Source: Bacteroidales bacterium (GTDB taxonomy: Bacteria > Bacteroidota > Bacteroidia > Bacteroidales > UBA932). From it: a stretch of 37,278 bases of DNA. Of the stretch, positions 1,746 to 34,238 are shown in pieces. Every line of letters starts with the position of its first letter. The first letter of the stretch is position 1. A program made the position numbers and the translations under genes. A model generated the notes under the pieces. The model worked only from the letters and a program-made list of their open reading frames with translations, had not been told where the DNA came from and ran no database searches. Location of the stretch: contig JAFPGC010000029.1 of the NCBI GenBank assembly GCA_017423025.1, positions 1-37,278 on the forward strand, written 5' to 3'.

Positions 1746-3311
1746 ATGAAGCGTTTTTTCATCCTGGGAGCCGTGGCGCTGGCGGCGCTGCTCTCCTGCA
1801 GCAAAGGGGATAGCGATCCCCGTCTTGTCATCATCACTTTTGACGGCCTGCGCTGGCAGGAACTCTTCTCCGGGGCCGATGAAGGCCTGGTGGAAAGCAC
1901 CCGCTTTGTCCCGGATCCTGCGGCGTTGAAGCAGGCCTATTGGCGGGATACGCCCCAGGAGCGGCGCGAAGTCCTTATGCCCTTTATCTGGAGCTACGTT
2001 CCTGAGCATGGCTATCTGATTGGCAATCGCGAAAAGAACAGCCTCATGCAGGTGGCCAACAAGATGTGGTTCTCCTATCCCGGTTACAGCGAAATGTTCT
2101 GCGGCTGGCCCGACGACGAGAGAATCAACAGCAACGATCCCGTTCCCAACCCCAATGTGAGCGTAATGGAAGTGGTGAACCAGGACCCCCGCTACAAAGG
2201 GAAGGTGATGATGTATTCCTCCTGGAAGAGCATCCGCTTTGCCATGAACAACGACCGGGGCGGCTTCCCCGGCAGTTCCGGACATGAGCCTTCCTATACG
2301 GACAGCGAGGAGGCCCGCAGGATACAGGACATGGATGCCGGCATTGCCGGTGGCGGTATCGGGCCCACTGAGCGGCTGGACTGCATCACCTACGGCATGG
2401 CCCTGGAAACCCTCAAGAAAGAGCACCCCAAGGTGTTCTATGTGGGTTTCGGAGATACGGATTCCTATGCCCACAAAGGCCGGTACGATCTCTATCTGGA
2501 ATCGGCCCACTGGACAGACCTGTACATCCGCCGCATCGTAGAGTATTGCGAATCGGATCCTTTCTACAAGGGAAAGACCACCTATCTCCTCCTTTGCGAC
2601 CACGGCCGCGGAACGGGTGCGGCTTTCCGTCATCATGGCGACAATCATCGCGGATCCAACCAGACCTGGTTCATGGCCTTCGGCAAGGGTGTTCCCGTGG
2701 TAGGTGAGACGGCCGATGTCGGCATTTTCTACAACAAGCAGCTCGCCGCCACCATCGCCGATATCCTGGGGGTGGATTTTACTCCCGGCAATGGGGAGAA
2801 ATGCGCCCCCATCGATCCCACTTACCGCAGGGAAGAGGATTTCCATCCCGTGGCATCGGCCGTTTTCCCGGCGGTGCAGGCCAGTCCCAAGGGACCGGGA
2901 CTCCGCTATTCGTATAAGGAGGGGGATTTTATGTGTTGTGAGGAAGTGATGGCTGCCTCTGTGAAAAAGAGCGGCATAACTCCCGTCTTCGGAACGGAGG
3001 CCATCAAGGAGCGGGAAGACCACTTCGGCATTGTCTTCAAGGGACTTATGAAGATAGAGAAGGAAGGCGTTTATTTCTTTACGGTGGCCTCGGACGACGG
3101 CTCCAAGGTTTGGCTGGACGGCCAGCTGCTTTGGGACCTGGACCGTCCCGGAGGCGGCAGCAAAGAGGTCTGGATTGAACTGGGCGCCGGTTATCACCGC
3201 CTGGAAGTCCAGTACTTTGAGAATTACGGCGGAGAGTGCATGGACCTGGGCCTGAAGGGTCCGGATATGGATGTGCCCAATCTTCCGGCTTCCATGCTTT
3301 TCCATGAATAG
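1746..3311 (+). CDS. Alkaline-phosphatase-superfamily lipoprotein with C-terminal PA14-like module (copy 1)
   Basis: The 521-residue protein begins with a lipoprotein leader (lipobox LLSC, Cys18). Residues about 25-370 show the alkaline phosphatase/nucleotide pyrophosphatase superfamily pattern: a first metal Asp in TFDG (Asp33), the segment SYPGYSE (110-116) that should hold the Ser nucleophile, GDTDSYAH, and CDHGRG (Asp285, His286). Residues about 381-521 form a PA14-like beta module with DHFGIVFKG, SDDGSKVWLDGQ and the closing NLPASMLFHE. The family hydrolyses phosphate mono- or diesters (sometimes sulfates); the actual ester is unknown. It is first in a two-gene unit with GH127, 14 bases apart. 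A close paralogue at 11645 matches at roughly 70% of positions by eye. The PA14-like module probably binds glycan (inference). Confidence 0.85.
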   Translation: MKRFFILGAVALAALLSCSKGDSDPRLVIITFDGLRWQELFSGADEGLVESTRFVPDPAALKQAYWRDTPQERREVLMPFIWSYVPEHGYLIGNREKNSLMQVANKMWFSYPGYSEMFCGWPDDERINSNDPVPNPNVSVMEVVNQDPRYKGKVMMYSSWKSIRFAMNNDRGGFPGSSGHEPSYTDSEEARRIQDMDAGIAGGGIGPTERLDCITYGMALETLKKEHPKVFYVGFGDTDSYAHKGRYDLYLESAHWTDLYIRRIVEYCESDPFYKGKTTYLLLCDHGRGTGAAFRHHGDNHRGSNQTWFMAFGKGVPVVGETADVGIFYNKQLAATIADILGVDFTPGNGEKCAPIDPTYRREEDFHPVASAVFPAVQASPKGPGLRYSYKEGDFMCCEEVMAASVKKSGITPVFGTEAIKEREDHFGIVFKGLMKIEKEGVYFFTVASDDGSKVWLDGQLLWDLDRPGGGSKEVWIELGAGYHRLEVQYFENYGGECMDLGLKGPDMDVPNLPASMLFHE

Positions 3312-3325
3312 TTAATACCCAAGCT

Positions 3326-5173
3326 ATGCTCAAACCATTATTATCCCTGGGAGCGGCGCTCCTGCTGGTTACCGCCTGTTTGCAGGAGCCTAAAGAGAAG
3401 ACCCTCAAACTGATGACTCCGGTCCCGTTCTCAGATGTCAAAATTGAGGACGGTTTCTGGAGCCCGCGTCTGGAACTGCACAAGTTTGAAACCCTGAAGG
3501 TGTGCATGGACCAGATAGAAAACCAGACGGGCCGCATTCAGAATTTCGAGAGAGCTGCGGAAGGGGAGGGGGAGCATTCCGGCATCTTCTTCGACGATTC
3601 CGACGTCTACAAGGCCCTGGAGGGGATGGCTTATTCCCTGCAGAACCAGCCTGATCCGGCGCTGGAAGCCAAATGCGACGAGTGGATAGATAAGTTTGCC
3701 GCCGCCCAGCAGGCCGATGGCTATATCAATACCTATTTCACGCTCACCGGCCTGGAAAACCGCTGGACCGACATAGACAAGCACGAGATGTACTGCGCCG
3801 GTCACATGATCGAGGCGGGCGTGGCCTACTACAAGGCCACCGGAAAGCGTAAGTTGCTGGATGTCTGCGAGAAGATGGCCGCCCACATGATGAGCGTCTT
3901 CGGCCCTGAGAAGCGTCACTGGGTGCCCGGGCATGAGGAGATTGAGCTGGCGCTGGTAAAACTGTACGAAGTGACCGGGAAGAAAGAATACCTGGATTTC
4001 GCAGCGTGGCTGCTGGACCAGCGCGGACACGGATACGGTGCCTATGTGGGAAGGGATGAGAACTACTGGAAGGTGCATTACCAGGATGAGCATCCGGTGA
4101 GGGAACTGGAAACCATCGCCGGCCACGCGGTACGGGCCATGTACCTTTATTGCGGAATGGCCGATGTGGCCGCCTACACGGGGGATGAAGGCCTCATCGC
4201 CGCCCTGGACCGCCTCTGGGATCATGTGGTAAACCGCAACATGTACATCACCGGTGGTATCGGCCAGAGTTCCAGCAATGAGGGCATCACGGAAGATTAT
4301 GACCTGCCCAACCTGACGGCCTACTGCGAGACCTGCGCCTCCGTGGGAATGGTGTTCTGGAACTGGCGCATGAACCAGCTTTCGGGAGATGCAAAGTATG
4401 CCGATGTTATGGAGCGCTCTATGTACAACGGGGCTCTGGCGGGCATCAACCTTTCCGGGAACAAGTTCTTCTATGTCAATCCCTTGGAGTCTCTTGGGAA
4501 CCATCACAGGCAGGCCTGGTACGGCTGCGCCTGCTGCCCCAGCCAGATCTGCCGCTTCCTGCCTTCCATCGGCAATTATGTCTATGGTGTATCGGCCGAT
4601 GCCCTCTGGGTGAACCTGTATATGGGCAATGAGGCCGACATAAAACTGGGCGGCAAGGAGGTTAAGGTAACGCAGGAGACGAACTACCCTTGGGAGGGTT
4701 CCGTAAAGCTTAAACTCAACCTCAAGGGCAAGGTGAAGAGTGAGATCCGGATCCGCATACCGGGCTGGTGCAAACTGTCCCTGCTGTCTGTGAACGGCGT
4801 GCCCGTGGATCCTCCCGTGGACAAAGGCTACGCAGTGCTGGAAGGTACATGGAAGGACGGGGATGTGATTGATTTTGAAATGGATATGCCCATCGAGGTG
4901 GTAGAGGCCGATCCTCGTGTGAAGGAGGATGTGGGCAAGCGCGCAGTCCAGCGCGGTCCTCTGGTGTATTGCCTGGAAGAGCAGGACAACCGGACGGATT
5001 TCGATGCCATCACCATTCGGCCCGATGCCTCCTGGAATGCCACTTATGACAAAGATTTCCTGGCCGGCGTGGTAAGGATTACGGATGGCTCTGCCACTTA
5101 CATTCCTTATTACACCTGGGACAACCGGATGGCGGGGAAGATGAAGGTGTGGGTGCCTTTGGCCGAAGAATAA
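3326..5173 (+). CDS. GH127 beta-L-arabinofuranosidase-like lipoprotein
   Basis: This 615-residue protein has a lipoprotein leader (VTAC lipobox). It shows the GH127 (formerly DUF1680) pattern: an (alpha/alpha)6 barrel with DGYINTYF, HEMYCAGHMIEAGVAYY and RGHGYGAYVGRDENYWKVHYQ, then a beta-rich C-terminal part. GH127 enzymes such as Bifidobacterium HypBA1 use a zinc-bound cysteine nucleophile with a Glu and three Cys. The matching residues are visible: Glu335 and Cys337 in AYCETC, and Cys403-Cys404 in GCACCPS, with Cys403 the expected nucleophile. It should remove terminal beta-L-arabinofuranose from plant glycans or glycoproteins. It follows the phosphatase gene by 14 bases and is closed off by a strong terminator. 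The family includes other pyranose specificities, so the sugar is less certain than the family. Confidence 0.9.
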   Translation: MLKPLLSLGAALLLVTACLQEPKEKTLKLMTPVPFSDVKIEDGFWSPRLELHKFETLKVCMDQIENQTGRIQNFERAAEGEGEHSGIFFDDSDVYKALEGMAYSLQNQPDPALEAKCDEWIDKFAAAQQADGYINTYFTLTGLENRWTDIDKHEMYCAGHMIEAGVAYYKATGKRKLLDVCEKMAAHMMSVFGPEKRHWVPGHEEIELALVKLYEVTGKKEYLDFAAWLLDQRGHGYGAYVGRDENYWKVHYQDEHPVRELETIAGHAVRAMYLYCGMADVAAYTGDEGLIAALDRLWDHVVNRNMYITGGIGQSSSNEGITEDYDLPNLTAYCETCASVGMVFWNWRMNQLSGDAKYADVMERSMYNGALAGINLSGNKFFYVNPLESLGNHHRQAWYGCACCPSQICRFLPSIGNYVYGVSADALWVNLYMGNEADIKLGGKEVKVTQETNYPWEGSVKLKLNLKGKVKSEIRIRIPGWCKLSLLSVNGVPVDPPVDKGYAVLEGTWKDGDVIDFEMDMPIEVVEADPRVKEDVGKRAVQRGPLVYCLEEQDNRTDFDAITIRPDASWNATYDKDFLAGVVRITDGSATYIPYYTWDNRMAGKMKVWVPLAEE

Positions 5174-5198
5174 GCCCCGCTTGGCTGCGGCACAATTT

Positions 5199-5233: not shown

Positions 5234-5236
5234 CAT

Positions 5237-5269: not shown

Positions 5270-5305
5270 TGATAAAGAAGCTAACCATTGTCAAATTTTT
5301 AAGGA

Positions 5306-8113
5306 ATGCGAGCAAATATAAAAGTTCAGGTGCTGTCAGTGCTGGTACTGGCGGCTGTTTGGGGATGTTCCACTGCCTCCGGGCCCATGGATTCCGTGCA
5401 TGTTTTCAACGGAACCGGCTTTCACGGCCATACCTATCCGGGTGCCACCACGCCCTTCGGCCTGGTGCAGTTGAGCCCTGATACCCGTACCTATGGCTGG
5501 GACGGCTGCTCCGGCTATCATTATTCGGACAGCACCATCCTGGGCTTCAGCCATACCCACCTGAGCGGTACCGGTTGCGCAGATCTGGGGGACTTCCTCT
5601 TTACCCCCGGCATGGGTGGCATCAAGCCCCTTGCGCTGGATCATCAGAATGAATCGGCCCGTCCGGGTTACTACAAGGTGGTGACGCCGGCTGTCACGGT
5701 GGAACTCACCGCCACTCCGCATGTGGGTGTGCATCGCTATACCTTCACCGGCGAAGGAACGCCCCAGGTGCTGCTGGATGCCAATCATACCATAGGCAAT
5801 GACAACCGTGCCGTGGAGGCCTGGTTCAAAGTGGAAGGGGAGAAGGAAGTAAGCGGCAAGCGCCTGGTAAACGGCTGGGTCCAGGGAAGAAGCATTTTCC
5901 TGAACGCCCAGTTCTCCGTTCCTTTCGTAAAGGCCGAAGAAACCGCCCCCGGCCTGCTGCTGCTCACCTTCCCGGAGGACCTCAAGGACCTGACCGTATG
6001 GGCCGGCCTGTCTTACACCGGAACGCAGGAGGCCCGCTTCAACCGCGAGGCCGAGACCCAGGATAAAGAGTTCCAGGAGGTTCTGGGGCAGACCACGGAC
6101 ATCTGGGTGAAGGCCCTTGGCAGCATCGAGGTGCAGGGCGGTCCCGTGGACCAGTTCTACACCTGCCTCTACCATACCTTGGTTGAGCCCAACAACATTG
6201 CCGATTTCAACAGCGACCGGCCCTTTTACTCCACGCTTTCCCTCTGGGATACCTTCCGCAGCTGGAATCCGCTGCAGACCCTCCTGAATCCGCAGCTGGT
6301 CAACGATATGATTAACAGCATGCTGGAGATGTACCGCAAATGGGGAGAGCTTCCCATCTGGCCCCTGGGCCATGGGGAAACCGGCTGCATGATAGGTTAT
6401 CACAGCATTCCCGTCATAGCCGACGCCTGGCTGCACGGCATCCGTGGTTTCAACGGGGAGGAAGCCCTGGCCGCCATGGTGGTGTCGTCCAACAAGAACA
6501 AGGGCATCACCTCGGACCTTTACAACCAGTATGACTACATTCCGGCCAACCTGATGAGCCAGTCCGTCTCCCAGACCCTTGAGATGGCTTACGACGACTG
6601 GTGCATCGCCCGCATGGCCGAGAGCCTGGGCAAGGCCGATATTGCCGCGGAGTACGACGCCCGCGCCCTGCGTTACCAGAACGTTTTCGATCCCTCCACC
6701 GGCTTTATGCGCGGCAGGGAAGACACCGGTAACTGGGTGGAACCCTTCGACCCCATCGCTTCCACGCGGGATTACACCGAAGCCATTCCCTGGCAGGCCC
6801 GTTTCTTCGTGCCCCACGACGTGGCCGGCCATACGGACCTGATGGGCGGCGTGCAGCCCATGCTGGCGGCCCTGGATTCCCTCTTTACCTTCGAGGACCG
6901 CAGCGAAAAAGTGCATGTCTCGGACATCACCGGCCTCAAGGGCCAGTATGCCCACGGCAACGAGCCCAGCCATCATATGGCCTGGATCTACAACTGGCTG
7001 GGTGCTCCCTCCAGCAGCCAGAAAGTGGTGCGTGAACTTCTGGAAGAAATGTACGACATTACCCCCGAAGGTGTGTGCGGCAACGAGGACTGCGGCCAGA
7101 TGAGTGCCTGGTACGTCCTCTCTTCCCTGGGTATCTATCCCGCCTGCCCCACCAGCGGAGAATACATCCTGGCGGCTCCGCTCTTCAAGAAAGCCACCCT
7201 GCATCTGGGCAGCGGCAAGGACTTCACCATCACGGCCGACCATCCCGAATGGATGTATGTGGCCGATGTCAAGCTCAACGGCCAGCCCCTGGAGCGCAAT
7301 TTTGTCACCTATGAGGAGATTATGGCCGGCGGCACTTTGGCCTTCAAGCTTTCCAAGGAACCGGTCAGCAGCCGCAACGACTTCCCGGCTCCGTATTCCC
7401 TGACCCAAAAGCCGGTGGTTTCCACGCCGGTCCTTCCTGACGGACTCCTGCTCTTCAAGGGTTCCGTGAATCTGGTCATGAGCAGCCGTACCCAAGGCGC
7501 AGCCATCCACTATACCCTGGACGGCAGCGAACCCACGGAGGCCAGCCCCCTGTATACCCAGCCCTTCGCGCTGGACCACTCGGCCACCATCCGCGCCCGT
7601 GCCTTCAAGGAGGGGATGCAGCCTTCTCCCGAGGCCCGCGCCGAGGCTACCAAGGCCGTCTTCTCTCACGCAGTCACACGCATCGGCCTCAAAAACGGAT
7701 GCCGCTATACTTATCACCGCGGAGAATTCGGCTGGTCGGCCGATGTCAAGAAGAGCCCCGTGGCAGCGACTGGCGTAATGGCGGCCCCTTCCATCAAGGA
7801 GGCTCCCGACGAAGACCACTTCGGCTATATCTTTACCGGCTACATCAACATTCCCGAGGACGGCATCTGGAGCTTTGCCCTGCGCAGTGACGACGGTGCC
7901 ATCCTGGAAATTGACGGCAAGCTGGTGGTGAACAACGACGGTTCCCATTCGGCCATTACCACCATGGGCCGCGTTCCGCTCCTCAAAGGCCTGCATCCCT
8001 ACAAACTGGTATATCTGGAAGATTACGAGGGTCAGGCACTGTCCTGGGCCTGGAAAGCCGAAAATGCCACCCAGTTCTCACCCATTCCCAAAGACCAACT
8101 ATTTTACCAATAA
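5306..8113 (+). CDS. GH92 alpha-mannosidase with chitobiase-C-like and PA14-like C-terminal domains
   Basis: The 935-residue protein starts with a lipoprotein leader (lipobox VWGC). Residues about 30-690 are GH92, a calcium-dependent exo-alpha-mannosidase family: signatures include YPGATTPFGLVQLSPD, GFSHTHLSGTG, LWDTFRSWNPL, the acid-containing GNEPSHH (Glu553) and GNEDCGQMSAWY (593-604). Residues about 705-780 look like the chitobiase/hexosaminidase C-terminal beta domain (AIHYTLDGSEPT). Residues about 790-935 are a PA14-like module (EDHFGYIFTGYINIPEDG, SDDGAILEIDGK) related to that of the two phosphatase lipoproteins here. It removes terminal alpha-mannose, usually alpha-1,2 or alpha-1,3, or mannose attached through phosphate. 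It opens the long operon and its TAA shares its last A with the ATG of the next gene, so the two are probably translationally coupled. Linkage specificity cannot be read by eye. Confidence 0.93.
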   Translation: MRANIKVQVLSVLVLAAVWGCSTASGPMDSVHVFNGTGFHGHTYPGATTPFGLVQLSPDTRTYGWDGCSGYHYSDSTILGFSHTHLSGTGCADLGDFLFTPGMGGIKPLALDHQNESARPGYYKVVTPAVTVELTATPHVGVHRYTFTGEGTPQVLLDANHTIGNDNRAVEAWFKVEGEKEVSGKRLVNGWVQGRSIFLNAQFSVPFVKAEETAPGLLLLTFPEDLKDLTVWAGLSYTGTQEARFNREAETQDKEFQEVLGQTTDIWVKALGSIEVQGGPVDQFYTCLYHTLVEPNNIADFNSDRPFYSTLSLWDTFRSWNPLQTLLNPQLVNDMINSMLEMYRKWGELPIWPLGHGETGCMIGYHSIPVIADAWLHGIRGFNGEEALAAMVVSSNKNKGITSDLYNQYDYIPANLMSQSVSQTLEMAYDDWCIARMAESLGKADIAAEYDARALRYQNVFDPSTGFMRGREDTGNWVEPFDPIASTRDYTEAIPWQARFFVPHDVAGHTDLMGGVQPMLAALDSLFTFEDRSEKVHVSDITGLKGQYAHGNEPSHHMAWIYNWLGAPSSSQKVVRELLEEMYDITPEGVCGNEDCGQMSAWYVLSSLGIYPACPTSGEYILAAPLFKKATLHLGSGKDFTITADHPEWMYVADVKLNGQPLERNFVTYEEIMAGGTLAFKLSKEPVSSRNDFPAPYSLTQKPVVSTPVLPDGLLLFKGSVNLVMSSRTQGAAIHYTLDGSEPTEASPLYTQPFALDHSATIRARAFKEGMQPSPEARAEATKAVFSHAVTRIGLKNGCRYTYHRGEFGWSADVKKSPVAATGVMAAPSIKEAPDEDHFGYIFTGYINIPEDGIWSFALRSDDGAILEIDGKLVVNNDGSHSAITTMGRVPLLKGLHPYKLVYLEDYEGQALSWAWKAENATQFSPIPKDQLFYQ

Positions 8114-10038
8114 TGAGAAACTTTTTCCTTGTTCTGGCAGCCCTGCTGCCGCTGTCGCTGGCTGCCCAGCAGCCCGTGGTGCTGCATTCGCACAACGACT
8201 ATAACCGCACGGCACCCTTCTGGGAGGCTTATTCCCAGCATTGCCGTTCCATTGAGGCCGATGTCCACTGGCACGACGGCCAGCTCCTGGTGGGCCACGA
8301 TGTGGAAGACCTGAAGCCAGAGAATACGTTCCTGCGCATGTACGTGGATCCCATCGTGCGCACTTTCCGCGCCAACGGCGGCAAGATGTGGGCCGGTTCC
8401 CCTGACCGCCTCATGCTCATGGTGGAGCTCAAGAGCCCCACGGAGCCCGAACTCTCGGAAGTGATCAAGCTCCTGGAACAGTTCCCGGACGTATTCTGCA
8501 GCCCCGACGGAGTGCAGATCTCCATTACCGGCAACACCCCGGCCAAGGAGCATTTCTGCGACTATCCCGCCTGGGTGGGTTATGACGGAGACATCCGCGA
8601 CAACTACACCCCGGAGCAGCTGGAGCGCGTGGCCCTGGTGAGTAACTCCTTCCGCATGTTTGCCAAGAAGTGGAACGGCAAGGGCCGTATGATCGATCCC
8701 GAGCTGGACGCCGTGAAGGCGGCCATCGCCAAGGTGCATTCCTGGGGCAAGCCCATCCGTTTCTGGGAGGCACCCGAAGGCACCACCGCCTACTTCACCT
8801 TCTGGAAACTGGGCGTGGATATCATCAATACGGACAAGCCCGCCGTGGCATCCCTCTTCTTCTCCGACTGGGGCAACAAGAACTTCATCATGGGCAAGCA
8901 CGAGGTTCAGGCCGGTGTGACGGGCACCAAGAAACTGGACGCCGCCACCCGCAGCTTCTCCGGTTTCCAGAACGAGAAACTGCAGCTGAGCCAGCGCGTT
9001 CCCACCTATACGCCCACTTACTTCAACGACGGCGCCAAGAAAAAGATCAAGAACGTGATCCTGCTCATCGGCGACGGCATGGGCCTGAACCAGGTAATGG
9101 CGGCCGCCTATGCCAACAATCGGGAACTGACCATGCTCAACATGAAGAGCGTGGGCATCCAGTACTACAATCCCAATGACGATTTCATCGGCGACTCCGC
9201 TTCCGGCGGCAGCGCCCTTGCAACGGGCGAAGTCTCCTGGACCCGCCATATCTCCTCCAACAAGGACGGCTCCGAGGAGTATTCTCCGCTTACGGATTAT
9301 TTCAAGGCTATGGGCAAGGCTACGGGCGTAGTCTCTTTGGGAGATATTGCCGATGCCACCCCTGCTGTATTCTACGGTCATACCTCCGAGCGTGACAGCA
9401 CCGACAAGATTACCAGCTACTGGCTCACCAGCGACGTAGATCTCATCTGCGGCCCCGGCACCAGCTATGTGGAGCGTCCCCGAAAGGACGGCCTGGATAT
9501 GCTCAACGGCATCAAGGCCAACGGCTACAGCTACACCAAGAACGCCACCGCTGTGGATCAGGTCAGCGGCAAGCTCATCTGCCTGGACGACCGCATGGGC
9601 GCTTACGCTACGGAAGAGACCCTGCCTTTCCTGGCCGATATCACCCGCGCTTCCATCCAGAAGCTTTCCAAGGATTCCAAGAAGGGCTTCTTCCTCATGG
9701 TGGAAGGCGCCAAGATTGACTATGCCGGCCACTCCGACTGCTTCCCGGCTTCCGTGATAGAGGAATTCAGCTTTGACCTGGCAGTGGCCGAGGCCCTCAA
9801 GTTTGCCGATTCCAACGGCGAAACCCTGGTGGTGGTGACGGCCGACCACGAGACCGGCGGCCTCACCCTCCTGGACGGAGACCTGGAGACGGGTCATGTG
9901 CTGGCCGTTTACAATTCCGACGACCATACGCCCACCGTGGTGCCCGTCTATGCCTACGGCCCCGGTTCCCGCGAGTTCATCGGCACCTATCTGAATGTTG
10001 AGATTGCCCGTACCATCAAAAAGCTGGTTACCAAATGA
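8113..10038 (+). CDS. Two-domain phosphodiesterase (GDPD/PI-PLC-like) - alkaline phosphatase fusion
   Basis: A Sec leader ends near LSLAAQ, then residues about 22-260 resemble the glycerophosphodiester phosphodiesterase/PI-PLC-like TIM barrel: HSHNDY (25-30), SIEADVHW, LLVGHD and VELKSP supply the expected His, Glu, Asp, His and Glu residues. Residues about 310-641 are a PhoA-type alkaline phosphatase: LIGDGMG, GDSASGGSALATG with the nucleophile Ser362, MVEGAKIDYAGH, TADHETGG and SDDHTPTVVPVYAYGP. One polypeptide could therefore cut a phosphodiester and then strip the remaining phosphomonoester. This domain pairing is found in other Bacteroidota (from memory). It shares a base with the GH92 stop codon and its own TGA overlaps the next ATG, so it belongs with the mannosidase. 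Substrate unknown; glycerol-phosphate or sugar-phosphate diesters are likely (inference). Confidence 0.88.
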   Translation: MRNFFLVLAALLPLSLAAQQPVVLHSHNDYNRTAPFWEAYSQHCRSIEADVHWHDGQLLVGHDVEDLKPENTFLRMYVDPIVRTFRANGGKMWAGSPDRLMLMVELKSPTEPELSEVIKLLEQFPDVFCSPDGVQISITGNTPAKEHFCDYPAWVGYDGDIRDNYTPEQLERVALVSNSFRMFAKKWNGKGRMIDPELDAVKAAIAKVHSWGKPIRFWEAPEGTTAYFTFWKLGVDIINTDKPAVASLFFSDWGNKNFIMGKHEVQAGVTGTKKLDAATRSFSGFQNEKLQLSQRVPTYTPTYFNDGAKKKIKNVILLIGDGMGLNQVMAAAYANNRELTMLNMKSVGIQYYNPNDDFIGDSASGGSALATGEVSWTRHISSNKDGSEEYSPLTDYFKAMGKATGVVSLGDIADATPAVFYGHTSERDSTDKITSYWLTSDVDLICGPGTSYVERPRKDGLDMLNGIKANGYSYTKNATAVDQVSGKLICLDDRMGAYATEETLPFLADITRASIQKLSKDSKKGFFLMVEGAKIDYAGHSDCFPASVIEEFSFDLAVAEALKFADSNGETLVVVTADHETGGLTLLDGDLETGHVLAVYNSDDHTPTVVPVYAYGPGSREFIGTYLNVEIARTIKKLVTK

Positions 10039-19081: not shown

Positions 19082-19100
19082 AATTAACAAAATATTGAGT

Positions 19101-23845: not shown

Positions 23846-23858
23846 TTACATATTTGAG

Positions 23859-26381: not shown

Positions 26382-26382
26382 A

Positions 26383-26518: not shown

Positions 26519-26613
26519 CGGTGTAGACATCATAATTGTCAGCAGGTTGCTGAAGAATTGATGTTGCCGAATCCTTATACAAAGTCTTGAGAATTTCCGT
26601 AACATTGTGTGAC

Positions 26614-27735
26614 ATGAGGAAACTAATCATCATATTCTTTCTATCGGTATTCACGGTGTCGCTCCGTGCGCAAGGTGTGAAGGCAGGCCCCTGGGTCAGT
26701 GACACGGGGGAGAACGCTTTCACGCTTGTATGGACCAGCGAGGTGCCGGGAATGGCCTGGGTGCAGCTGGAAGATGGCCGCATACTGTATGAGACCTTTG
26801 CTGGAAGGCGAATTTTTGGCCGATTGCACCGTATCAAAGTGGAAGGCCTCCCGCGCGGCGTGGTGCGTTACCGCATCGGCGGGCAAAACCTGGAGGACGA
26901 TTCCAGCCCCTACAACCCTGTTTTCGGCGACTGTTATGAAGGAGACTGGCACTCGGTGAAAACGTTTGACAGCATGGCTTCCTCCTGCCGCTTCTCCGTG
27001 TTCAACGACATCCACATGCACACGGACAAATATGCCGCGCTGGCTTCCCAGGTAGATTCTGCCAGAACGGATTTCATTTTCCTGAACGGAGATATTGTAT
27101 CGGCCGGTAATTATGTGATGGACACTATGGTGCGCTATGCCGTGGAGCCCTTGGGAAGCCTGGTAAACGGAATTCCGCTGCAATACACAAGGGGCAATCA
27201 CGAAGGCCGGGGCAACAACGTGCCTCTTGTGGCCGATGTTTTCCCCCGCAGCGGCGCTCCCTTCTACTACACCTTCCGCCAGGGTCCTGTGGCGTTCATC
27301 GTCTTTGACGCAGGGGAGACCAATGCCAAGCGCAGCGCCCTCTACAGCGGGGCGGAAGTGTTTGAGGATTACTTGAAAGAGCAAATCGAATGGGCCCGGG
27401 AAGCCGTCCGGGAACCCCTTTTCCGGAAAGCACCTGTGAAGGTGTGCCTTCTCCATGTTCCCATGATTGACCATCCGGACAAAACGGATTACCTGCTGCA
27501 GCGCTGGCTTAACGAGCATATAGTTCCCCTTCTGAACAAGGCGGGAATAGACCTCATGATAGGGGCTGACCTTCACGAATTCATGCTCTGCGAGCCCGGC
27601 ACCATGGGCAACCGTTTCCCCATTCTGGTGAACGACAACGAGCGCCGCCTGCAGTTCGAATACACCCGCGGCGGCCGCATCCACGTCTCCACCTTCAACG
27701 CCTCCGGAGAAAAGGAGTTTGAGAGGGAGTTCTAG
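26614..27735 (+). CDS. Secreted calcineurin-like metallophosphoesterase with N-terminal Fn3-like domain
   Basis: The ATG at 26614 gives a normal Sec leader (MRKLIIIFFLSVF...LRAQ); an in-frame TTG at 26587 adds only a non-signal stretch. The product is 373 residues. Residues about 25-110 are an Fn3-like domain as in purple acid phosphatases (NAFTLVWTSEVPGMAWVQLEDG). The catalytic domain shows VFNDIHMH (Asp132, His134), LNGDIV, GNHEGRGN and LLHVPMIDHP. The last metal motif reads GADLHE where most relatives have GHxH, so one histidine ligand is replaced by Asp. It is the first gene after the inverted repeat and likely begins a new unit. It should hydrolyse phosphoesters at a two-metal centre in the periplasm; the natural substrate is unknown. 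Confidence 0.85.
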   Translation: MRKLIIIFFLSVFTVSLRAQGVKAGPWVSDTGENAFTLVWTSEVPGMAWVQLEDGRILYETFAGRRIFGRLHRIKVEGLPRGVVRYRIGGQNLEDDSSPYNPVFGDCYEGDWHSVKTFDSMASSCRFSVFNDIHMHTDKYAALASQVDSARTDFIFLNGDIVSAGNYVMDTMVRYAVEPLGSLVNGIPLQYTRGNHEGRGNNVPLVADVFPRSGAPFYYTFRQGPVAFIVFDAGETNAKRSALYSGAEVFEDYLKEQIEWAREAVREPLFRKAPVKVCLLHVPMIDHPDKTDYLLQRWLNEHIVPLLNKAGIDLMIGADLHEFMLCEPGTMGNRFPILVNDNERRLQFEYTRGGRIHVSTFNASGEKEFEREF

Positions 27736-27797: not shown

Positions 27798-28250
27798 ATG
27801 ATAACCATCGGCGACAAGATGCCCTCCTTTGAGGTTTTGGACCAGGATGGCAATACGGTGAAATCTGAGGATTTCATCGGCAAAGGGAAAAAGACCATCA
27901 TTTATTTCTATCCCAAGGACAACACTTCCGGGTGCACGGCAGAGGCCTGCTCGTTCCGGGACAACTATGCCGCGCTTACGGAGGCCGGATACAACGTGGT
28001 GGGGGTGAGTAAGGACAGCGCAAAGTCCCATACGGGATTCCGGGCCAAGTTCGGACTTCCTTTCAGGCTGCTGGCCGATACGACCACGGAGATGCTTCAG
28101 GCATTCGGCGCCTGGGGAGAGAAGAAGATGTACGGGAAAACCACGATGGGGACGCTCCGCCGCACCTTCATCTTTGACGAAAACGGCATCCTGGAGCGCA
28201 TCATCGAGAAGGTGGACACCAAAAATTCCGCAGGGCAAATCCTCGAATAA
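27798..28250 (+). CDS. bcp: Bcp-type peroxiredoxin (thioredoxin-dependent thiol peroxidase)
   Basis: The 150-residue protein is full length for the Bcp/PrxQ family, which reduces peroxides using a peroxidatic cysteine recycled by thioredoxin. Visible motifs are IYFYPKDNTSGCTAEACSFRD, with Cys46 as peroxidatic and Cys51 as resolving residue, then VVGVSKDS, KFGLPFRLLAD and RRTFIFDENG. The usual Pro before Gly-Cys (TPGC) is Ser here. It has no export signal, so it acts in the cytoplasm, unlike every other protein in the window. It lies between a metallophosphoesterase and GH20, 62 bases after the former. Its presence is either a housekeeping gene trapped between two PUL blocks or part of the same transcript; nothing links it to glycan breakdown. 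Confidence 0.93.
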   Translation: MITIGDKMPSFEVLDQDGNTVKSEDFIGKGKKTIIYFYPKDNTSGCTAEACSFRDNYAALTEAGYNVVGVSKDSAKSHTGFRAKFGLPFRLLADTTTEMLQAFGAWGEKKMYGKTTMGTLRRTFIFDENGILERIIEKVDTKNSAGQILE

Positions 28251-28348: not shown

Positions 28349-29893
28349 ATGAGAAGACTGTATTACCTGCTTGTTTGCGCCCTGGCCCTGTCCTGCGGAG
28401 CCCCCAAGGATAAGGATACTGCGCAGGGGGCACAGCCGGGGGACATTATCCCGGCACCGGTGGAGTATGCGCTCACTTCCGGTAGTGTGGAATCTGCTAA
28501 GGTGGCGCAATTGCCTCAGAAGGTAAAGATTTCCGAAAAGGCCCTTAGCAAGCGCTTGAATGGAAAGGAATTGACCGATTGGCAACTCAAAGGCGCATAC
28601 TGGCTGGAAGTGGGAAAGAAGACTGTAAAGATAGAGGCGGCCGATGAAGAAGGCGTGTTCTATGCCCGGCAGTCCCTGAAGATGCTGGCGGCCCTGGACA
28701 GCACAGTTACCTGTTGCACCATCCTGGACTGGCCGCGTTTCCAGTACAGGGGACTCATGCTGGATGTGAGCCGGAATTTCCAGGACAAGGAGTTTGTGAA
28801 GAAGCAATTGGAGATGATGGCCCTCCTGAAGATGAACCGCTTCCATTTCCATCTGGTGGACAACCCGGGCTGGCGGCTGCAGATAGACGCTTACCCCCGG
28901 CTCACGCAGTTCACCGCCTGGCGCCCCATCCCCGATTTCTGGGAATGGGAAGATAGCGGAGGAGATGTGTCGGGAGGCGCTTTTGTGGAGGAAGGCACCC
29001 CAGGAGCCTATGGCGGCTATTACAGCAAAGAAGATATTGCTGAGTTGTTGGCATTTGCGGCCGAAAGGCAGATAGAGGTAATCCCGGAGATAGAGATGCC
29101 GGGGCACAATTATGAGACCCGGGCCGCTTATCCCGAGCTGGTATGCAGCCTGATGAAGGCACCGGATGACTGGGAACTCTGCCCGGGCAAGGAAAGCACC
29201 TATGAATTCCTGGAGAATGTGCTTCTGGAAGTGTTTGAGATGTTCCCCAGCCCCTATATTCACATTGGCGGGGACGAGGCCGGAAAGCGGAACTGGGAAC
29301 TGTGCCCGGACTGCCAGGCCCGGATAAAGGCCGAGGGTCTCCAAAACGTGGAAGAGCTTCAGAGCTACATGATTAAGCGCATGGAGCGCTTTGCCCACGA
29401 GCATGGCAAACGCATCATCGGCTGGGATGAGATCCTGGAAGGAGGCCTGGCCCCAGATGCTACCGTGATGTCCTGGCGCGGGACGGAGGGCGGCCTGAAG
29501 GCGATTGCCCAGGGCCACGATGTCATCTTCACGCCATCCCGCTACTGTTATCTGGACCATCAGCAGGACTCCCTCCAGTACAAGCCTGTCAGCAGTCCCG
29601 TGCCATTGGAGAAAGTGTACTCCTTTGAACCGTTGGTGGAAGGTATCTCCGAGGCCGATGTACACCACGTACTGGGCTTGCAGGGCAGCCTGTGGACAGA
29701 GTGGGTCCACGAGGCCTGGCACGCGGAAATCATGCTCTATCCCCGCGCTTTCGCCATTGCCGAGGTGGGCTGGAGCCAGGCCGATAAGAAGAACTATCCG
29801 GACTTCGAACGCCGTGCCCGCGCCTGGTCCGCCGTGGCCCGCCAGATGGGTTACAACGTGTATGATTCTAAAAACAAACAATATACGAAATGA
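28349..29893 (+). CDS. GH20 beta-N-acetylhexosaminidase lipoprotein
   Basis: The 514-residue protein has a lipoprotein leader (lipobox ALSC, Cys16). A short N-terminal GH20b-like domain (about 33-125, IPAPVEY ... YARQSLKML) precedes the catalytic barrel with LDVSRNFQDKEFV, FHLVDNPGWRLQIDAYPRL, EIEMPGHNYETRAAYPEL, the catalytic pair HIGGDE (Asp309, Glu310) and SLWTEWVHEAWHAE. GH20 enzymes remove terminal beta-GlcNAc or beta-GalNAc using the substrate's acetamido group. It is very similar to the C-terminal half of the fusion at 13200, starting at the same IPAPVEY motif. Here, however, it is membrane anchored and alone. A tail lysine/asparagine-rich (DSKNKQYTK) is the only notable difference at the end. 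The following gene begins 1 base after its stop. Confidence 0.93.
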   Translation: MRRLYYLLVCALALSCGAPKDKDTAQGAQPGDIIPAPVEYALTSGSVESAKVAQLPQKVKISEKALSKRLNGKELTDWQLKGAYWLEVGKKTVKIEAADEEGVFYARQSLKMLAALDSTVTCCTILDWPRFQYRGLMLDVSRNFQDKEFVKKQLEMMALLKMNRFHFHLVDNPGWRLQIDAYPRLTQFTAWRPIPDFWEWEDSGGDVSGGAFVEEGTPGAYGGYYSKEDIAELLAFAAERQIEVIPEIEMPGHNYETRAAYPELVCSLMKAPDDWELCPGKESTYEFLENVLLEVFEMFPSPYIHIGGDEAGKRNWELCPDCQARIKAEGLQNVEELQSYMIKRMERFAHEHGKRIIGWDEILEGGLAPDATVMSWRGTEGGLKAIAQGHDVIFTPSRYCYLDHQQDSLQYKPVSSPVPLEKVYSFEPLVEGISEADVHHVLGLQGSLWTEWVHEAWHAEIMLYPRAFAIAEVGWSQADKKNYPDFERRARAWSAVARQMGYNVYDSKNKQYTK

Positions 29894-29894
29894 A

Positions 29895-31208
29895 ATGAAA
29901 CGAAGAGACTTTATCAAAGTATCCGGCGCTGCTGCACTGGTGGCCGGGAGCGGCCAGCTGGTATCGGCCGCTGAGCATCTGAGCCAGGAGGAAAAGCCTG
30001 AGAAACTGATAGCGACGGCCCCCATGCTCCAGAATTTTGCCGAGACGTCCATAGGCGTAGCCTTTGCGGTGAACGACCTGGCTAACGGCTATGTGCTCAT
30101 AGGAGAGAAGGCCGACCTGAGCGATGCCCGCAAGGTGCTTTGCGGCGGCTACCGCCTGTGCGACATTGACGAGCGCGTGATCCAAGTGCGCATCACGGGA
30201 CTGAAGCCTGCTACGCGCTACTATTACAAGATAGGCGCGGACCGCATCCATTACGGCCACGGTTACGACATGAAGGTGCTGGGTAATGAGGAGGATCCCC
30301 GGGTTTATACTTTTGTAACGGCTGGCGAAGCCTTGAAAGGCAAGTTCTGCGTAATTAACGACACCCACAGGAAATGGGAGTCCCTGGGCCCGGTGCTGGA
30401 TAAAGTGGAAGCTCTGGCCCCTGCCTGCGTGGTGTGGAATGGAGACGCCTCCAATTCCGAGGAAACCCTGGAAAAGCAGGTGCAGATTTTCCTGGACCAC
30501 GACCTTCCCCGCAAGGACTATGCGGCCGAAATCCCCTATCTCTTCTGCCCGGGCAACCACGATTCCCGCGGTCGGGCCAACCGGCATTTGGAGCGCGTGT
30601 GGATGTACCGCCAGCCGGAAGAAAGGGACGTCCGGGACTGGGACCTGGGCCGTAACTTTGCCATCCGCCTGGGCGATATGGCCCTCATCGGCCTGGATAC
30701 GGCCGAGGACAAGCTGGACACCAACCCCATCTTTGCCGGCCTGTTCAAGAGCAAGGAGTACCGCGAGGCGCAGACGGCCTGGCTGCGCGATGCCCTGGCC
30801 CGTCCGGAGATTGCATCGGCCCCCTTCCTGGTAGCCTTCTGCCACATTCCGCTCTTTGACGACGATCCTACGCACAACCCCGGCGATGTGGCTCCTGCCG
30901 ACAAGGACCCCCAGTATCTCACAGACTTTGCCTTCTGGCAGCGCACCTGCGCGAACATGTGGGGACCGCTGCTGCACAAGGCCGGTTGCCAACTGCTGAT
31001 TACGGCCCATATGCACCAATACCGCTGCGACAAACCGACTGCAGACCGCTGCTGGACCCAGATTGTGGGCGGCGGCCCCCACATGAAGCCCGGCCCCGAG
31101 TATCCTACGGTGATAGAAGGTGCAGTGAAGGGCAACAAGCTCCACATCACGGTCCATAACATTCTCACCGGTCAGGTGCAGGATGCGTTTGAATTCAAGA
31201 GAAGATAG
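29895..31208 (+). CDS. Tat-exported metallophosphoesterase, purple-acid-phosphatase-like (intact copy)
   Basis: The frame is open far upstream inside GH20, but the ATG at 29895 gives a twin-arginine leader (MKRRDFIKVSGAAALVAG) and 437 residues. Residues about 45-145 are the Fn3-like N-domain (AETSIGVAFAVNDLANGYVLIGEK ends here in segments shared with the remnant at 23495; TRYYYKIG follows). The catalytic domain has VINDTH (about 155), WNGDASNSEE, CPGNHDSRG (about 218), AFCHIPLFDDDP and TAHMHQY (about 370), a complete two-metal set. It should hydrolyse phosphoesters in the periplasm. It follows GH20 by one base, so the two are probably co-translated, linking phosphate removal to N-acetylhexosamine release (inference). 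Confidence 0.88.
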   Translation: MKRRDFIKVSGAAALVAGSGQLVSAAEHLSQEEKPEKLIATAPMLQNFAETSIGVAFAVNDLANGYVLIGEKADLSDARKVLCGGYRLCDIDERVIQVRITGLKPATRYYYKIGADRIHYGHGYDMKVLGNEEDPRVYTFVTAGEALKGKFCVINDTHRKWESLGPVLDKVEALAPACVVWNGDASNSEETLEKQVQIFLDHDLPRKDYAAEIPYLFCPGNHDSRGRANRHLERVWMYRQPEERDVRDWDLGRNFAIRLGDMALIGLDTAEDKLDTNPIFAGLFKSKEYREAQTAWLRDALARPEIASAPFLVAFCHIPLFDDDPTHNPGDVAPADKDPQYLTDFAFWQRTCANMWGPLLHKAGCQLLITAHMHQYRCDKPTADRCWTQIVGGGPHMKPGPEYPTVIEGAVKGNKLHITVHNILTGQVQDAFEFKRR

Positions 31209-31221
31209 TAAGGCATTTTCC

Positions 31222-33180
31222 ATGGACAGGAGGTATTTCATCCGGTTTCTAGGCGTAGCGGCGGCTGGTTTTCTACTGGCCGTTTCCTGCTGGGATCATG
31301 GCGGCTACCGCTGGGAAAAGCAACCCGAAGGGATGGCCCTGAAGGATGGGGAAACCCTTATCGGCCTTTATCAGGTTTTGCCCGTGGAAGGAGTATCCCA
31401 TACGCAGAAGATAGAGAGGCTGGACGATTATACCTATAAGATTGTCAATTCCTTCCGGGCATTGGAAGACCGGGAATCCCTTCGTCTGGAGGCCCGTTTC
31501 GTGACTCCTTCTCCGGCCGGTTTCTGGATGATTCCTTCGGTCTCCTATAACGGGAATGAGTGGGGGCAGGGTCATGAGCCCAAGGGTGCCCGAGAAAATG
31601 GTGAGTGGCGGACGGTTTCTTACAGGCGTACTCCCATTCCCGGCGCCATGTATTCCGAGGGAGAGCGGTACGCCGTGGCCACCTGGTCGGACGTTCCTGC
31701 ATCGGCCCGGGAAGATTTTTCCATCTCTCTCCAGCCCGAGAAAACCCAAACCAGCCACTGCTATGTGTGGCCGGAAGAGGAAATGCCCCTGGTTTATGAC
31801 GGGCGAGACCATTTTTCGCTGGGCTACAGAAGCACTTTGACGCTAAAAAAGGGAGAGAGGGTCTCTTTCCCGGTTTATCTCCAGGTGGGCCTGGTACAGA
31901 AAGAGCACGGAGCCATGCGCTCTTTTCTGGACAAAGCCTGGGAACTGGCAGAGAAACCTTTTGTAGAAGTGTACTCTCCGGAGAAACTGTGGGAACTGGG
32001 CATCCGCTATGCCAAGGAATCCCTTTGGGCCGAAGAAGGGGACTACAAGGGTCTCAGTATAGGGCTTTTGCCTACGCCTGAGGGAGGCTGGAAGCAGCGG
32101 GGCGGCGGAAAGTATGAAATTGGCTGGTGTGGCCAGAACGCCTCCTATGCCATTTCCCTCCTGCAGGATTACCTGAAAAACGGCTCGGAGGAGTCTCTGA
32201 ACAAGGGAATGGCTACCTTGGACACTTGGAGCCGCTGCCTGTTGCCCAATGGCCTTTTCCGGGTGCGTTATGACAATCCGGAGGGCTCCATAGACGCCTG
32301 CAATCTGGGAACGGCTGCCGTGAACTTCTTTGAGGCATATGACGTAGCCCGGCAGTGCGGTAAGAATCGGCCCGAATATGAGAGCCTGGCTTTCCGGATC
32401 TGCGATTTCGTCAAGGCCGATCAGCAGGAGAACGGATGCTATGCCAAGGGCTGGCGGCCGGACGGCACCTGCCTTTACCGGGAGGGAACCGTAGGCTGCT
32501 TCCTGGTGCCGGCGATGCTTGAAGCGTACAAGCGAAGCGGTAAGGAGGAGTATTTGGAATCGGCCGAGAAGGCTTATGACCACTATCTTTTGGAATTGAA
32601 AGAGAAGGGCTTTACCACGGCCGGCGCTTTGGATACCTGGTGTATCGACAAGGAGTCGTCCCTCTCCCTGCTGCGTTCTGCCCTGCGTTTCTATGCGCTG
32701 GAAAAGGATCCGGATTATGTGGAGGATGCCCTGGCCATTTCCTATTACCTGTCCACCTGGCTCTGGCATTATGATGGGGTTTATCCGGAGGACAGCGATT
32801 TAACGCAGTACGGCTTTCATACCTTTGGCACCACCAGCGTATCCGTTCAGCACAATCATCTGGACCCGTATGCGCTATACTGGGTACCGGAGTGGATAGA
32901 ACTTTCGGCCCTCACAGGAGACCCCCAGTGGCAGGAAAAGGCCCTGGCCATCTGGCGTGCCGGAAACCAGCTGGTCTCTGACGGAAACCTTATGGTAAAC
33001 GGCCATCTCCGCCCCGCGGGCTCGCAGAACGAGGCCTATTTTGAATGCCAGTGGGGACTGGCAGCTGCCGGTGCCTACAAAGATGAGGGCTATCGCATCA
33101 ACAACTGGCTGGTGGCCTGGCCGGGTGCTTTCCGCCTGGAAACGCTTCGCCGCCTGGATGACTGGCAAATCCTTAAATAA
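31222..33180 (+). CDS. Unassigned (alpha/alpha)-barrel glycosidase-like lipoprotein
   Basis: The ATG at 31222 gives MDRRYFIRFLG with a Tat-like pair and a lipobox (LAVSC); an in-frame start at 31183 would place 13 residues ahead of it and is unlikely. The product is 652 residues. Residues about 30-255 look beta-rich (a sandwich domain), and residues about 270-650 are helical with repeated aromatic and Gly-rich turns: LWELGIRYAKESLW, EIGWCGQNASYAISLL, LPNGLFRVRYDNPEGS, EGTVGCFLVPAMLEAY, WCIDKESSLSLL and CQWGLAAAGAY. This is the general look of six-hairpin glycosidases or lyases. I do not recognise a specific GH family, and no catalytic pair can be named. Its place between two metallophosphoesterases in a glycan operon supports a glycan-processing role only. 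Confidence 0.75.
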   Translation: MDRRYFIRFLGVAAAGFLLAVSCWDHGGYRWEKQPEGMALKDGETLIGLYQVLPVEGVSHTQKIERLDDYTYKIVNSFRALEDRESLRLEARFVTPSPAGFWMIPSVSYNGNEWGQGHEPKGARENGEWRTVSYRRTPIPGAMYSEGERYAVATWSDVPASAREDFSISLQPEKTQTSHCYVWPEEEMPLVYDGRDHFSLGYRSTLTLKKGERVSFPVYLQVGLVQKEHGAMRSFLDKAWELAEKPFVEVYSPEKLWELGIRYAKESLWAEEGDYKGLSIGLLPTPEGGWKQRGGGKYEIGWCGQNASYAISLLQDYLKNGSEESLNKGMATLDTWSRCLLPNGLFRVRYDNPEGSIDACNLGTAAVNFFEAYDVARQCGKNRPEYESLAFRICDFVKADQQENGCYAKGWRPDGTCLYREGTVGCFLVPAMLEAYKRSGKEEYLESAEKAYDHYLLELKEKGFTTAGALDTWCIDKESSLSLLRSALRFYALEKDPDYVEDALAISYYLSTWLWHYDGVYPEDSDLTQYGFHTFGTTSVSVQHNHLDPYALYWVPEWIELSALTGDPQWQEKALAIWRAGNQLVSDGNLMVNGHLRPAGSQNEAYFECQWGLAAAGAYKDEGYRINNWLVAWPGAFRLETLRRLDDWQILK

Positions 33181-33212
33181 TATACTTTAAGTCTACAGAT
33201 CAGATATCGGAT

Positions 33213-34238
33213 ATGGACAGGAGAGATTTCATCAAAGTTTCGGGCGCAGCGGCCGCCGGAATCGCACTTACCGGATGCGGTCCCCGGCCGGAGAAAACGG
33301 CTGTTCCCGTGTTAACGCCCACGGATCCTTCCCGGATTGCCCGCGACATTGAAGCGCTTCCGCCGCTGTATGTCAAGGAGATACACGTCCGGGTCGGTGC
33401 CTCGGAACCTTTTGGCGTCCTGCACGTTTCGGACACGCACATCGTCCGGGCCGATGACCGCGACGACGAAAGGAAAATTGCCCTGGCTTCCCACCGTGTC
33501 CGGAGTATGACCTATGGGGAGCATTATCTGGACGAAGCCATCCGCTATGCCCGGGACAAGGGCTTGTATATGATGCACACCGGCGACCTGTACGACTTCG
33601 TGTCCGAAGCCAACCTGGACAGCTGTGCCGCCCACATGCTGGCGGCCGACTGGTTCGTCTGTGCCGGTAACCATGAGTATTCTAAATACGTAGGGGAAGC
33701 CAAAGAGGACGAGGCCTATAAAGAGAGCAGCCGGGAAGCCGTCCAGGGCGCCTATCCCAACAACCTGTTCTTCGCCAGCCGTATCATCAACGGGGTCAAT
33801 TTTGTGGCCCTGGACGATGTCTACTACAATTTCACGGAACGTCAGCATGCCCTTATGGAGGAAGAAATGAAAAAAGGTCTTCCCGTGGTGATGCTCTGCC
33901 ACGTCCCGCTTTACACGCCGCAGGCGCTGGCCGATGAACTCAGTTTCACCAACGGTAATTGCGGTTATCTTACCGGTGTTCCGGAGGAGTTCACCTCGAA
34001 GTACGACCCTGGCGTCACCTATCCGGCAGGCCAGGAATGGCGTTACCGCAAGGTCCAGCAGCATTCCGATGAACCTACCCTGGAGTTTCTGGCCTGGCTC
34101 AAGGAGCAGCCTCAGTTGAAAGCCATCCTTTGCGGCCACTGCCACCGTTTTTACGAAGAGCGCTTCTCTCCCACCGCTATGTTGTATGCCGTAGACGCCA
34201 CCTATCATGGCGGCGTCCAGGCTGTTTATTTCGAATAA
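33213..34238 (+). CDS. Tat-type lipoprotein metallophosphoesterase without Fn3 domain
   Basis: The 341-residue protein starts MDRRDFIKVSGAAAAG with a twin-arginine motif and a lipobox (ALTGC). Its leader is nearly the same as that of the gene at 29895. The calcineurin-like core is complete: HVSDTH (about 73), HTGDLYD, CAGNHEYSKY (about 152), LCHVPLYTP and CGHCHRFYEE (about 308). It lacks the Fn3-like N-domain of the other two and has its own insert rich in charged residues (VGEAKEDEAYKESSRE). It is 32 bases after the unassigned barrel gene and 44 bases before GH28-CE15, so it is part of the same run. It should be a membrane-anchored phosphoesterase; the substrate is unknown. Confidence 0.88.
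   Translation: MDRRDFIKVSGAAAAGIALTGCGPRPEKTAVPVLTPTDPSRIARDIEALPPLYVKEIHVRVGASEPFGVLHVSDTHIVRADDRDDERKIALASHRVRSMTYGEHYLDEAIRYARDKGLYMMHTGDLYDFVSEANLDSCAAHMLAADWFVCAGNHEYSKYVGEAKEDEAYKESSREAVQGAYPNNLFFASRIINGVNFVALDDVYYNFTERQHALMEEEMKKGLPVVMLCHVPLYTPQALADELSFTNGNCGYLTGVPEEFTSKYDPGVTYPAGQEWRYRKVQQHSDEPTLEFLAWLKEQPQLKAILCGHCHRFYEERFSPTAMLYAVDATYHGGVQAVYFE

Follow-up and report, generated by a model that had tools for sequence, protein, structure and literature searches.

In Bacteroidetes, SusC/D-type pairs accompanied by phosphoesterases have been described in loci that lack carbohydrate-active enzymes (CAZymes). The PUSII locus of Flavobacterium johnsoniae couples PusCD2 with PhoA1 (Fjoh_3249; pf00245 plus pf13653), which is strongly induced by phosphate depletion, and the available portion of that report sets PUSI and PUSII against CAZy-containing loci and describes PusD as polyphyletic (PMC8115612). 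According to the accessible part of a large comparison, PF00149 or PF01663 is encoded in 576 of 14,713 SusC/D loci devoid of CAZymes, sulfatases and peptidases (PMC6499787). The Bacteroidetes phosphatase PafA is exported and allows a phosphorylated carbohydrate to serve as carbon source, as stated in the accessible part of its description (PMC8812569). Here we describe a locus in which phosphoesterase and glycosidase genes are interleaved; it occupies the 37,278-nucleotide contig JAFPGC010000029.1 of a Bacteroidales bacterium (GCA_017423025.1), analyzed in full and hereafter called the window. From its gene content, the locus looks like a hybrid, i.e., a PUS-type phosphoesterase core putatively merged with a glycan locus, the architecture of the core being known and its combination with glycosidases a new variation. 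We place just on the probable side the interpretation that this is a locus of the polysaccharide utilization locus (PUL) type, for foraging on a phosphodiester-containing glycan.

Like PUSII, the locus has a SusC/D-type pair (its SusC partner seen in relatives) beside an alkaline phosphatase (ALP) carrying a domain of the glycerophosphodiester phosphodiesterase (GDPD) type, so that phosphomono- and phosphodiesterases are both represented. Unlike PUSII as presented in the available text (PMC8115612), it is not CAZy-free: more than 10 glycosidase domains are encoded in the window, along with lipoproteins joining an alkaline phosphatase (AP)-superfamily hydrolase to PA14, and relatives encode glycosidase-phosphodiesterase fusions. 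Nor is its SusD close to those of the two flavobacterial fusion loci tested (25% identity over 102 residues and separate places in the tree, F. johnsoniae itself lying outside the comparison), although SusD kinship is a weak guide because PusD is described as polyphyletic (PMC8115612). The loci of the large comparison likewise have phosphoesterases beside SusC/D, but the window also has CAZymes, and PafA is a single pf01663-type enzyme, whereas the window encodes several folds in one locus (PMC6499787; PMC8812569). As far as its available text goes, that comparison of glycan loci added only sulfatases and peptidases (PMC6499787); locus surveys compare glycosidases, lyases and esterases, so phosphoesterases in CAZyme-rich loci appear to have gone uncounted. 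No locus of the present type was found described in the searched literature, chiefly open-access titles and abstract openings. The PULs of Bacteroidetes for alpha-mannan or N-glycans, as generally understood, also combine SusC/D with GH92; unlike them, the window lacks a GH76 or GH125 match and links the GDPD-like-ALP fusion to GH92. With a SusD and co-oriented CAZymes of predicted exported type, the locus would belong to the PUL class.

The window is one entire contig (C34), truncated at both ends, of an assembly of 2.39 Mb in 88 contigs that is 87% complete. All assigned genes lie on the + strand; susC precedes susD in relatives, and the susC of the window would fall outside the contig. The features are the following.

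2..1624, + strand: SusD-like lipoprotein (PF07980 3e-22, PF14322), 5′ end lost at the contig start
1746..3311, + strand: AP-superfamily hydrolase with PA14, lipoprotein, copy A (PA14 2.8e-12)
3326..5173, + strand: GH127 lipoprotein (PF07944 1.7e-111)
5306..8113, + strand: GH92, alpha-mannosidase-type, with C-terminal PA14 (PF07971 2.1e-157, PA14 9.8e-14, PDB 6f8z 1.6e-156)
8113..10038, + strand: fusion of a GDPD/phospholipase C (PLC)-like phosphodiesterase-type domain and an alkaline phosphatase (PF00245 1.9e-50; PF13653 4.9e-4, under cut-off; PDB 2w5v 1.5e-49)
10035..11636, + strand: GH63/MGH1-like glycosidase (PF22422 9.6e-31, PF03200 9.7e-10; PDB Chaetomium alpha-glucosidase 4.8e-8)
11645..13207, + strand: AP-superfamily hydrolase with PA14, lipoprotein, copy B (73% identity to copy A)
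13200..16826, + strand: GH27-GH20 fusion (PF16499 6.3e-46, PF00728 2e-110)
16845..19019, + strand: GH27 (PF16499 2.4e-50)
19095..23483, + strand: GH78-like and GH3 fusion lipoprotein (PF17389 9e-28, PF00933 1.5e-65)
23495..23845, + strand: metallophosphoesterase remnant, N-terminus running into the 3′ end of a PA14 gene
23838..26381, + strand: GH43-like (PF04616 2.7e-8) with a ~520-residue domain of no assigned family
26587..27735, + strand: metallophosphoesterase 1 (PF00149 1.5e-11)
27798..28250, + strand: AhpC/TSA-type peroxiredoxin, cytosolic, between metallophosphoesterase 1 and GH20
28349..29893, + strand: GH20 lipoprotein (PF00728 7.6e-109)
29895..31208, + strand: metallophosphoesterase 2, Tat-type start (PF00149 1.9e-10, PF16656 2e-5)
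31183..33180, + strand: 665-aa lipoprotein (no Pfam match at E ≤ 0.001)
33213..34238, + strand: metallophosphoesterase 3, Tat/lipoprotein start (PF00149 2.3e-10)
34283..36874, + strand: fusion of GH28 (rhamnogalacturonidase-like) and a glucuronyl-esterase-like (CE15-like) domain (PF00295 3.4e-19, PF22244 1.5e-31)
36887..37276, + strand: N-terminus of WbsX (GH99-like), truncated by the contig end (PF14307 1.1e-9)

This content is established. The original prediction had placed six intact phosphoesterase genes, representing three folds, and a remnant among the glycosidases, and its coordinates and content were right; most of its family names also stand, except that its GH78 is a GH78-like/GH3 protein, 13200-16826 is GH27-GH20 and 34283-36874 is GH28-CE15-like. 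The GH92 stop overlaps the start of the fusion gene by 1 base, the fusion and GH63-like genes overlap by 4 bases and a spacer of 8 bases precedes the next gene, an operon-like arrangement.

Comparison with relatives identifies SusC/SusD, GH92-PA14, the GDPD-like-ALP fusion, the GH63-like glycosidase and AP-fold-PA14 as the conserved heart of the locus. The AP homologue and the fusion are uncommon at the cut-offs used: among 299 genomes of the family, the former (E ≤ 1e-60) was found in 7, the source genome included, and among 395 of the class, the latter (E ≤ 1e-90) was found in 2, namely, the source genome and G377, from another family of the order. A nearly full-length fusion is present in 7 of the 61 relatives searched, again including the source, and a query from G377 recovers 6 further fusions within the family of G377. 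Most of the relatives are uncultured Bacteroidales, with two records naming water-buffalo caecum and roe-deer omasum; genome names in RUG or RUI we take to denote rumen genomes. We compared 20 fusion loci, including the window (12 from Bacteroidales and 2 from Flavobacteriaceae, plus 6 from a second Bacteroidales family), which were selected for resemblance to the AP gene, to the fusion or to the G377 protein, no glycosidase serving as query; L070 (G003:C56) and L073 (G033:C7) were each counted once, L082 was left out and L078 was covered in part. The GH63-like gene is present in 14 of the 20, GH92 in 12 and either in 15, although L069 and G453 end before any GH92 could show. In half of the loci (10/20: window, G003, G019, G033, G017, G005, L071, L072, G377, G751), GH92, fusion and GH63-like genes are adjacent and in the same order. 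The window has a single GH92 gene, and related stretches have as many as three. The set of metallophosphoesterases is not constant, and a quarter of the loci (5/20) have neither glycosidase.

In relatives, the two enzyme classes also share polypeptides. Three kinds of glycosidase-phosphodiesterase fusions were observed as single open reading frames (ORFs), i.e., GH97-GDPD (G012), GH78-like-EEP (G005) and WbsX-GDPD-DUF4996 (G003), and relatives also encode an EEP-GDPD fusion of two phosphoesterase domains. A glycosidase and a phosphodiesterase in one protein are most simply explained by one substrate with both bonds. Over 125 residues, the WbsX fragment at the end of the window shares 84% identity with the N-terminal part of the G003 WbsX-GDPD-DUF4996 protein, so that a seventh phosphoesterase is possible in the window locus. 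G377 encodes a GDPD-like-ALP-metallophosphoesterase-PA14 protein of 1120 aa, and G012 has a metallophosphoesterase that matches PA14 weakly (E 0.003).

Minimal versions of the locus were found as well. In G377, one strand carries genes for a Peripla_BP_3-AraC regulator, SusC, SusD, GH92-PA14, the four-domain phosphoesterase, a GH63-like glycosidase and a ROK kinase; G844 has the set regulator, SusC, SusD, fusion, GH92, GH63-like and ROK, and G754 has SusC, SusD, fusion, metallophosphoesterase-PA14, GH63-like and ROK, plus a GDPD gene, with no GH92 seen. G751 has GH92-fusion-GH63-like with an EEP gene upstream. No pectin-type enzyme of the query set was found in the minimal loci. In G033, the gene immediately upstream of AP-PA14 also encodes a Peripla_BP_3-AraC regulator, and a homologue of it occupies the same position in G017; the regulator type, together with the ROK kinase, suggests sugar sensing and use. 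The SusD of the window groups with its counterparts from five related loci, G377 among them, in a clade with 100/100 support that lies apart from the flavobacterial SusDs. From this tree we take no more than the grouping of the locus SusDs; its controls were the longest ORFs, and the six that group together (L125-L128, L132, L140) probably represent proteins other than SusD, as judged for three of them by length alone.

The expected catalytic residues are conserved in both core phosphoesterases, for which enzyme activity is predicted. D33, S110, D239, H243, D285, H286 and H297 of AP-PA14 are invariant in 14 aligned rows (2 of them window copies, 4 without PA14); the roles of these residues are assigned from what is known of the superfamily. 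The Pfam match of the AP-PA14 catalytic part is weak, and its profile yields weak matches to solved phosphoglycerate mutase and NPP structures (E 0.005-0.05). H25, H27, E48, D50, H62 and K107 of the GDPD-like domain are invariant in 8 rows, which are 45-87% identical to the window sequence. Its sole Pfam match is PF13653 (4.9e-4, below the family cut-off), and its profile had two chance-level matches only among solved structures; the ALP half matches alkaline phosphatases, including the solved 2w5v (1.5e-49). Metallophosphoesterases 2 (DTH, GD, GNHD, HIP, AHMH) and 3 (DTH, GD, GNHE, HVP, GHCH) have the usual motif set and no solved-structure match at the thresholds used, whereas metallophosphoesterase 1 lacks the final G/AHxH motif, having DLH in its place. 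The remnant (23495-23845) resembles roughly the N-terminal 100 residues of the protein encoded at 29895-31208 (84% to this gene over 174 bases), and its own last residues are those with which a PA14 gene ends (85% to the 3′ end of the 1746 gene over 34 bases); it looks like a deletion scar between two genes of the locus.

The phosphoesterase load of the window is unusual, as had been proposed from the sequence. The source genome contains 8 PF00149 matches, 3 of them inside the window, and 22 phosphoesterase domains in total (metallophosphoesterase, EEP, GDPD, ALP, AP-PA14), of which 6 are found in the window, i.e., in 1.6% of the genome. Under uniform placement, the best 37-kb stretch reaches 6 in a fraction of 0.0002 of 20,000 trials, a control that was picked post hoc and in which the duplicated AP-PA14 pair is counted twice, inflating the count. 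As a baseline, we used the neighbourhoods of 130 PF07980 matches (2 under the family cut-off) in 7 genomes chosen for holding the fusion; the counts carry no contig-end correction, and the susD of the window has one flank only. At 37 kb, 66 neighbourhoods contain no phosphoesterase domain, 42 contain one, 12 two, 5 three and 3 four, with the window ranking first (6), followed by its orthologue in G003 (5).

Taken together, these data suggest the following mechanism. Glycosidases at the surface and in the periplasm, together with lectin-like PA14 domains, would trim or hold a branched glycan; domains of the GDPD/PLC type (in relatives also EEP and true GDPD) would cut the phosphodiester between a sugar and a polyol or the next sugar; and ALP, AP-fold proteins and metallophosphoesterases would strip the leftover phosphomonoester, after which the sugars could be taken up and serve as a carbon source. 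The phosphoesterase core is probably of common origin with PUS-type loci and would subsequently have been enlarged with glycosidases. The phosphorylated-glycan substrate, the order of the steps, the evolutionary direction and a role in carbon rather than phosphate supply are what we infer from the observed gene content, catalytic residues, neighbourhood and fusions. If correct, phosphate-bearing glycans would be a food source for gut Bacteroidales and the proteins named here candidate phosphoglycan-opening enzymes; phosphate-scavenging and glycan loci would be linked, with a testable route for one becoming the other.

Several observations weigh against this interpretation. Its main rival is phosphate scavenging of the PUS type, in which SusC/D and the phosphoesterases would obtain phosphate from organic phosphorus compounds, the glycosidases either uncovering it or being unrelated genes nearby. 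The GDPD-like-ALP architecture has a precedent in a CAZyme-free locus of phosphate starvation, PhoA1 of PUSII being identical in architecture and induced by phosphate depletion, as given in the available text (PMC8115612), which makes phosphate scavenging a real rival. Moreover, five of the 20 fusion loci (Croceitalea, a Maribacter metagenome-assembled genome (MAG), G864, G866 and G785) are without GH92 and GH63-like genes in the stretch examined, the ORF annotation being partial in the last three. Those of Croceitalea and Maribacter combine an AP homologue (40% and 43%, respectively), the fusion, SusC/SusD and a metallophosphoesterase or PhoD; the former is not glycosidase-free, because a GH1 gene lies ~10 kb off on the opposite strand (L080:2168-3535). 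In G864 and G866 (L168, L169), SusC-type genes and the fusion are joined by a gene for a solute-binding protein or an ABC transporter, with none of the sought glycosidases, a version that resembles phosphate scavenging. The five loci thus indicate that the enzyme core has phosphate-scavenging kin. Thirteen more stretches, most of them truncated, contain an AP homologue but no fusion (L074-L077, L081, G741, G581, G663, G614, G693, G014, G017 C125 and G005 C55); G017 and G005 do carry the fusion on other contigs, the stretches L075 (a Prevotella MAG) and L081 hold no further gene of the query set, and in G014, with no fusion in the 20 kb examined, a GH92 (37%) adjoins two PA14-less AP homologues, which for its part speaks for the glycan interpretation. 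In G050, only a broken AP match was found, with no other window gene within 17 kb. We nevertheless consider phosphate scavenging unlikely, given the more than 10 glycosidase domains of the window, the three kinds of glycosidase-phosphodiesterase fusions, the sugar-type regulator and ROK kinase of the minimal locus and the distance of its SusD from the flavobacterial one. Rumen fluid is rich in phosphate, which would also count against it if the window comes from that habitat.

The metallophosphoesterases vary among relatives and are not part of the core: number 1 has no relative in the compared stretches, number 2 has one (G003, 76%) and number 3 has two (G033 and G005), so that the six phosphoesterases cannot be given equal weight, as they had been in the original prediction. 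In smaller neighbourhoods the window no longer stands out, with 3 domains at 25 kb, where three other SusD neighbourhoods have 4, and 3 at 15 kb, where four others likewise have 3 and that of G003 has 4; it ranks first at 37 kb because the more distant metallophosphoesterases are then counted. The set GH28-CE15, GH127, GH106, GH2 and GH43 also suits phosphate-free plant glycans, and, with GH78/106 and GH27, such enzymes of the window or its relatives could serve pectin, arabinogalactan or extensin. The locus might then be an ordinary large PUL for plant cell wall or glycoprotein, with phosphoesterases as accessories acting on mixed debris (glycosylphosphatidylinositol (GPI)-anchored proteins, phospholipids, nucleotides); the second half, with its variable metallophosphoesterases and a cytosolic AhpC, suggests piecemeal acquisition in line with this. 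We regard such a PUL as rather improbable, since the fusion gene overlaps both GH92 and GH63-like genes, the order of the three recurs in half of the loci and the minimal loci show no pectin-type enzyme of the query set. Finally, AP-fold and calcineurin-like domains are able to act on bonds other than phosphoester, and the proteins could be misannotated or have come to lie together by chance and through local duplication; the two AP-PA14 genes are duplicates (73%), metallophosphoesterase 1 lacks a histidine motif, and the AP-PA14 and GDPD-like parts are, respectively, weak in and under the cut-off of Pfam. Set against the invariant metal and nucleophile residues, the repeated co-occurrence of AP and fusion genes across other genera and in a second family, and the uniform-placement control, this explanation has very little probability. 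The claim of a phosphate-bearing glycan is supported in part, for the core, which is conserved with glycosidases and matched by fusions in relatives, but not for phosphomannan.

As a specific substrate, yeast phosphomannan is not supported. PULs for yeast alpha-mannan combine GH92 with GH76 and GH125; the window has GH92, and none of the 19 proteins scanned, on a contig cut at both ends, has a GH76 or GH125 Pfam match. The GH92 is also far from CcMan5, which we take to be a GH92 phosphodiester-mannosidase: the nearest solved structures are 6f8z (1.6e-156) and 7zgm, and the CcMan5 chains (2xsg 7.3e-29, 4aq0 9.3e-29) are the last of 14. A glycerol- or inositol-phosphate link would suit chemistry of the GDPD/PLC type, and GDPD/PLC-like, EEP, calcineurin-like and AP folds each have a eukaryotic counterpart acting on GPI. 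The locus could be a phosphoglycan PUL dismantling glycosyl-inositol-phosphate or glycerol-phosphate glycans, the phosphodiesterases helping to open the chain, a specification that we advance as doubtful; rumen-protist GPI anchors, plant or fungal glycosyl-inositol-phosphoceramides and teichoic-type polymers may be its sources. The EEP protein of G751, encoded in the same stretch as GH92-fusion-GH63-like, matches a PGAP2IP nuclease-like model (1.3e-7), and no such match was found in the 5 other EEP domains scanned. GH28 and GH127 lean toward pectin-type models, both under NCBIfam cut-offs: the former scores 556 bits with the BT4153 model (cut-off 650), and the sole NCBIfam match of the latter is aceric acid hydrolase.

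Judged from motifs and by eye rather than by a signal-peptide predictor, a lipobox, Tat-like motif or hydrophobic N-terminus is present on all named enzymes, whereas AhpC (27798-28250) has none. The 665-aa lipoprotein (31183-33180) has weak matches to the C5-epimerase and GlcNAc-2-epimerase Pfam models and one odd match among solved structures, to a 'flagellin hook IN motif' chain (E 1.9e-4, residues 14-77); it is a candidate new glycan-active family. The C-terminal ~520-residue domain of the GH43-like protein (24801-26381) has no family and no solved-structure relative at the thresholds used, and exists in G019 as a separate protein of 545 aa, 66% identical. In the gap of ~200 bases that follows (26382-26586), parts look roughly inverted by eye; repeat detection gave no hairpin, and the gap does not recur in the compared loci. 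A metallo-beta-lactamase-fold protein of the Tat type (L085:16167-17090) recurs in the stretches of G003, G033, G017, G581 and G663 and is possibly a further hydrolase of the system.

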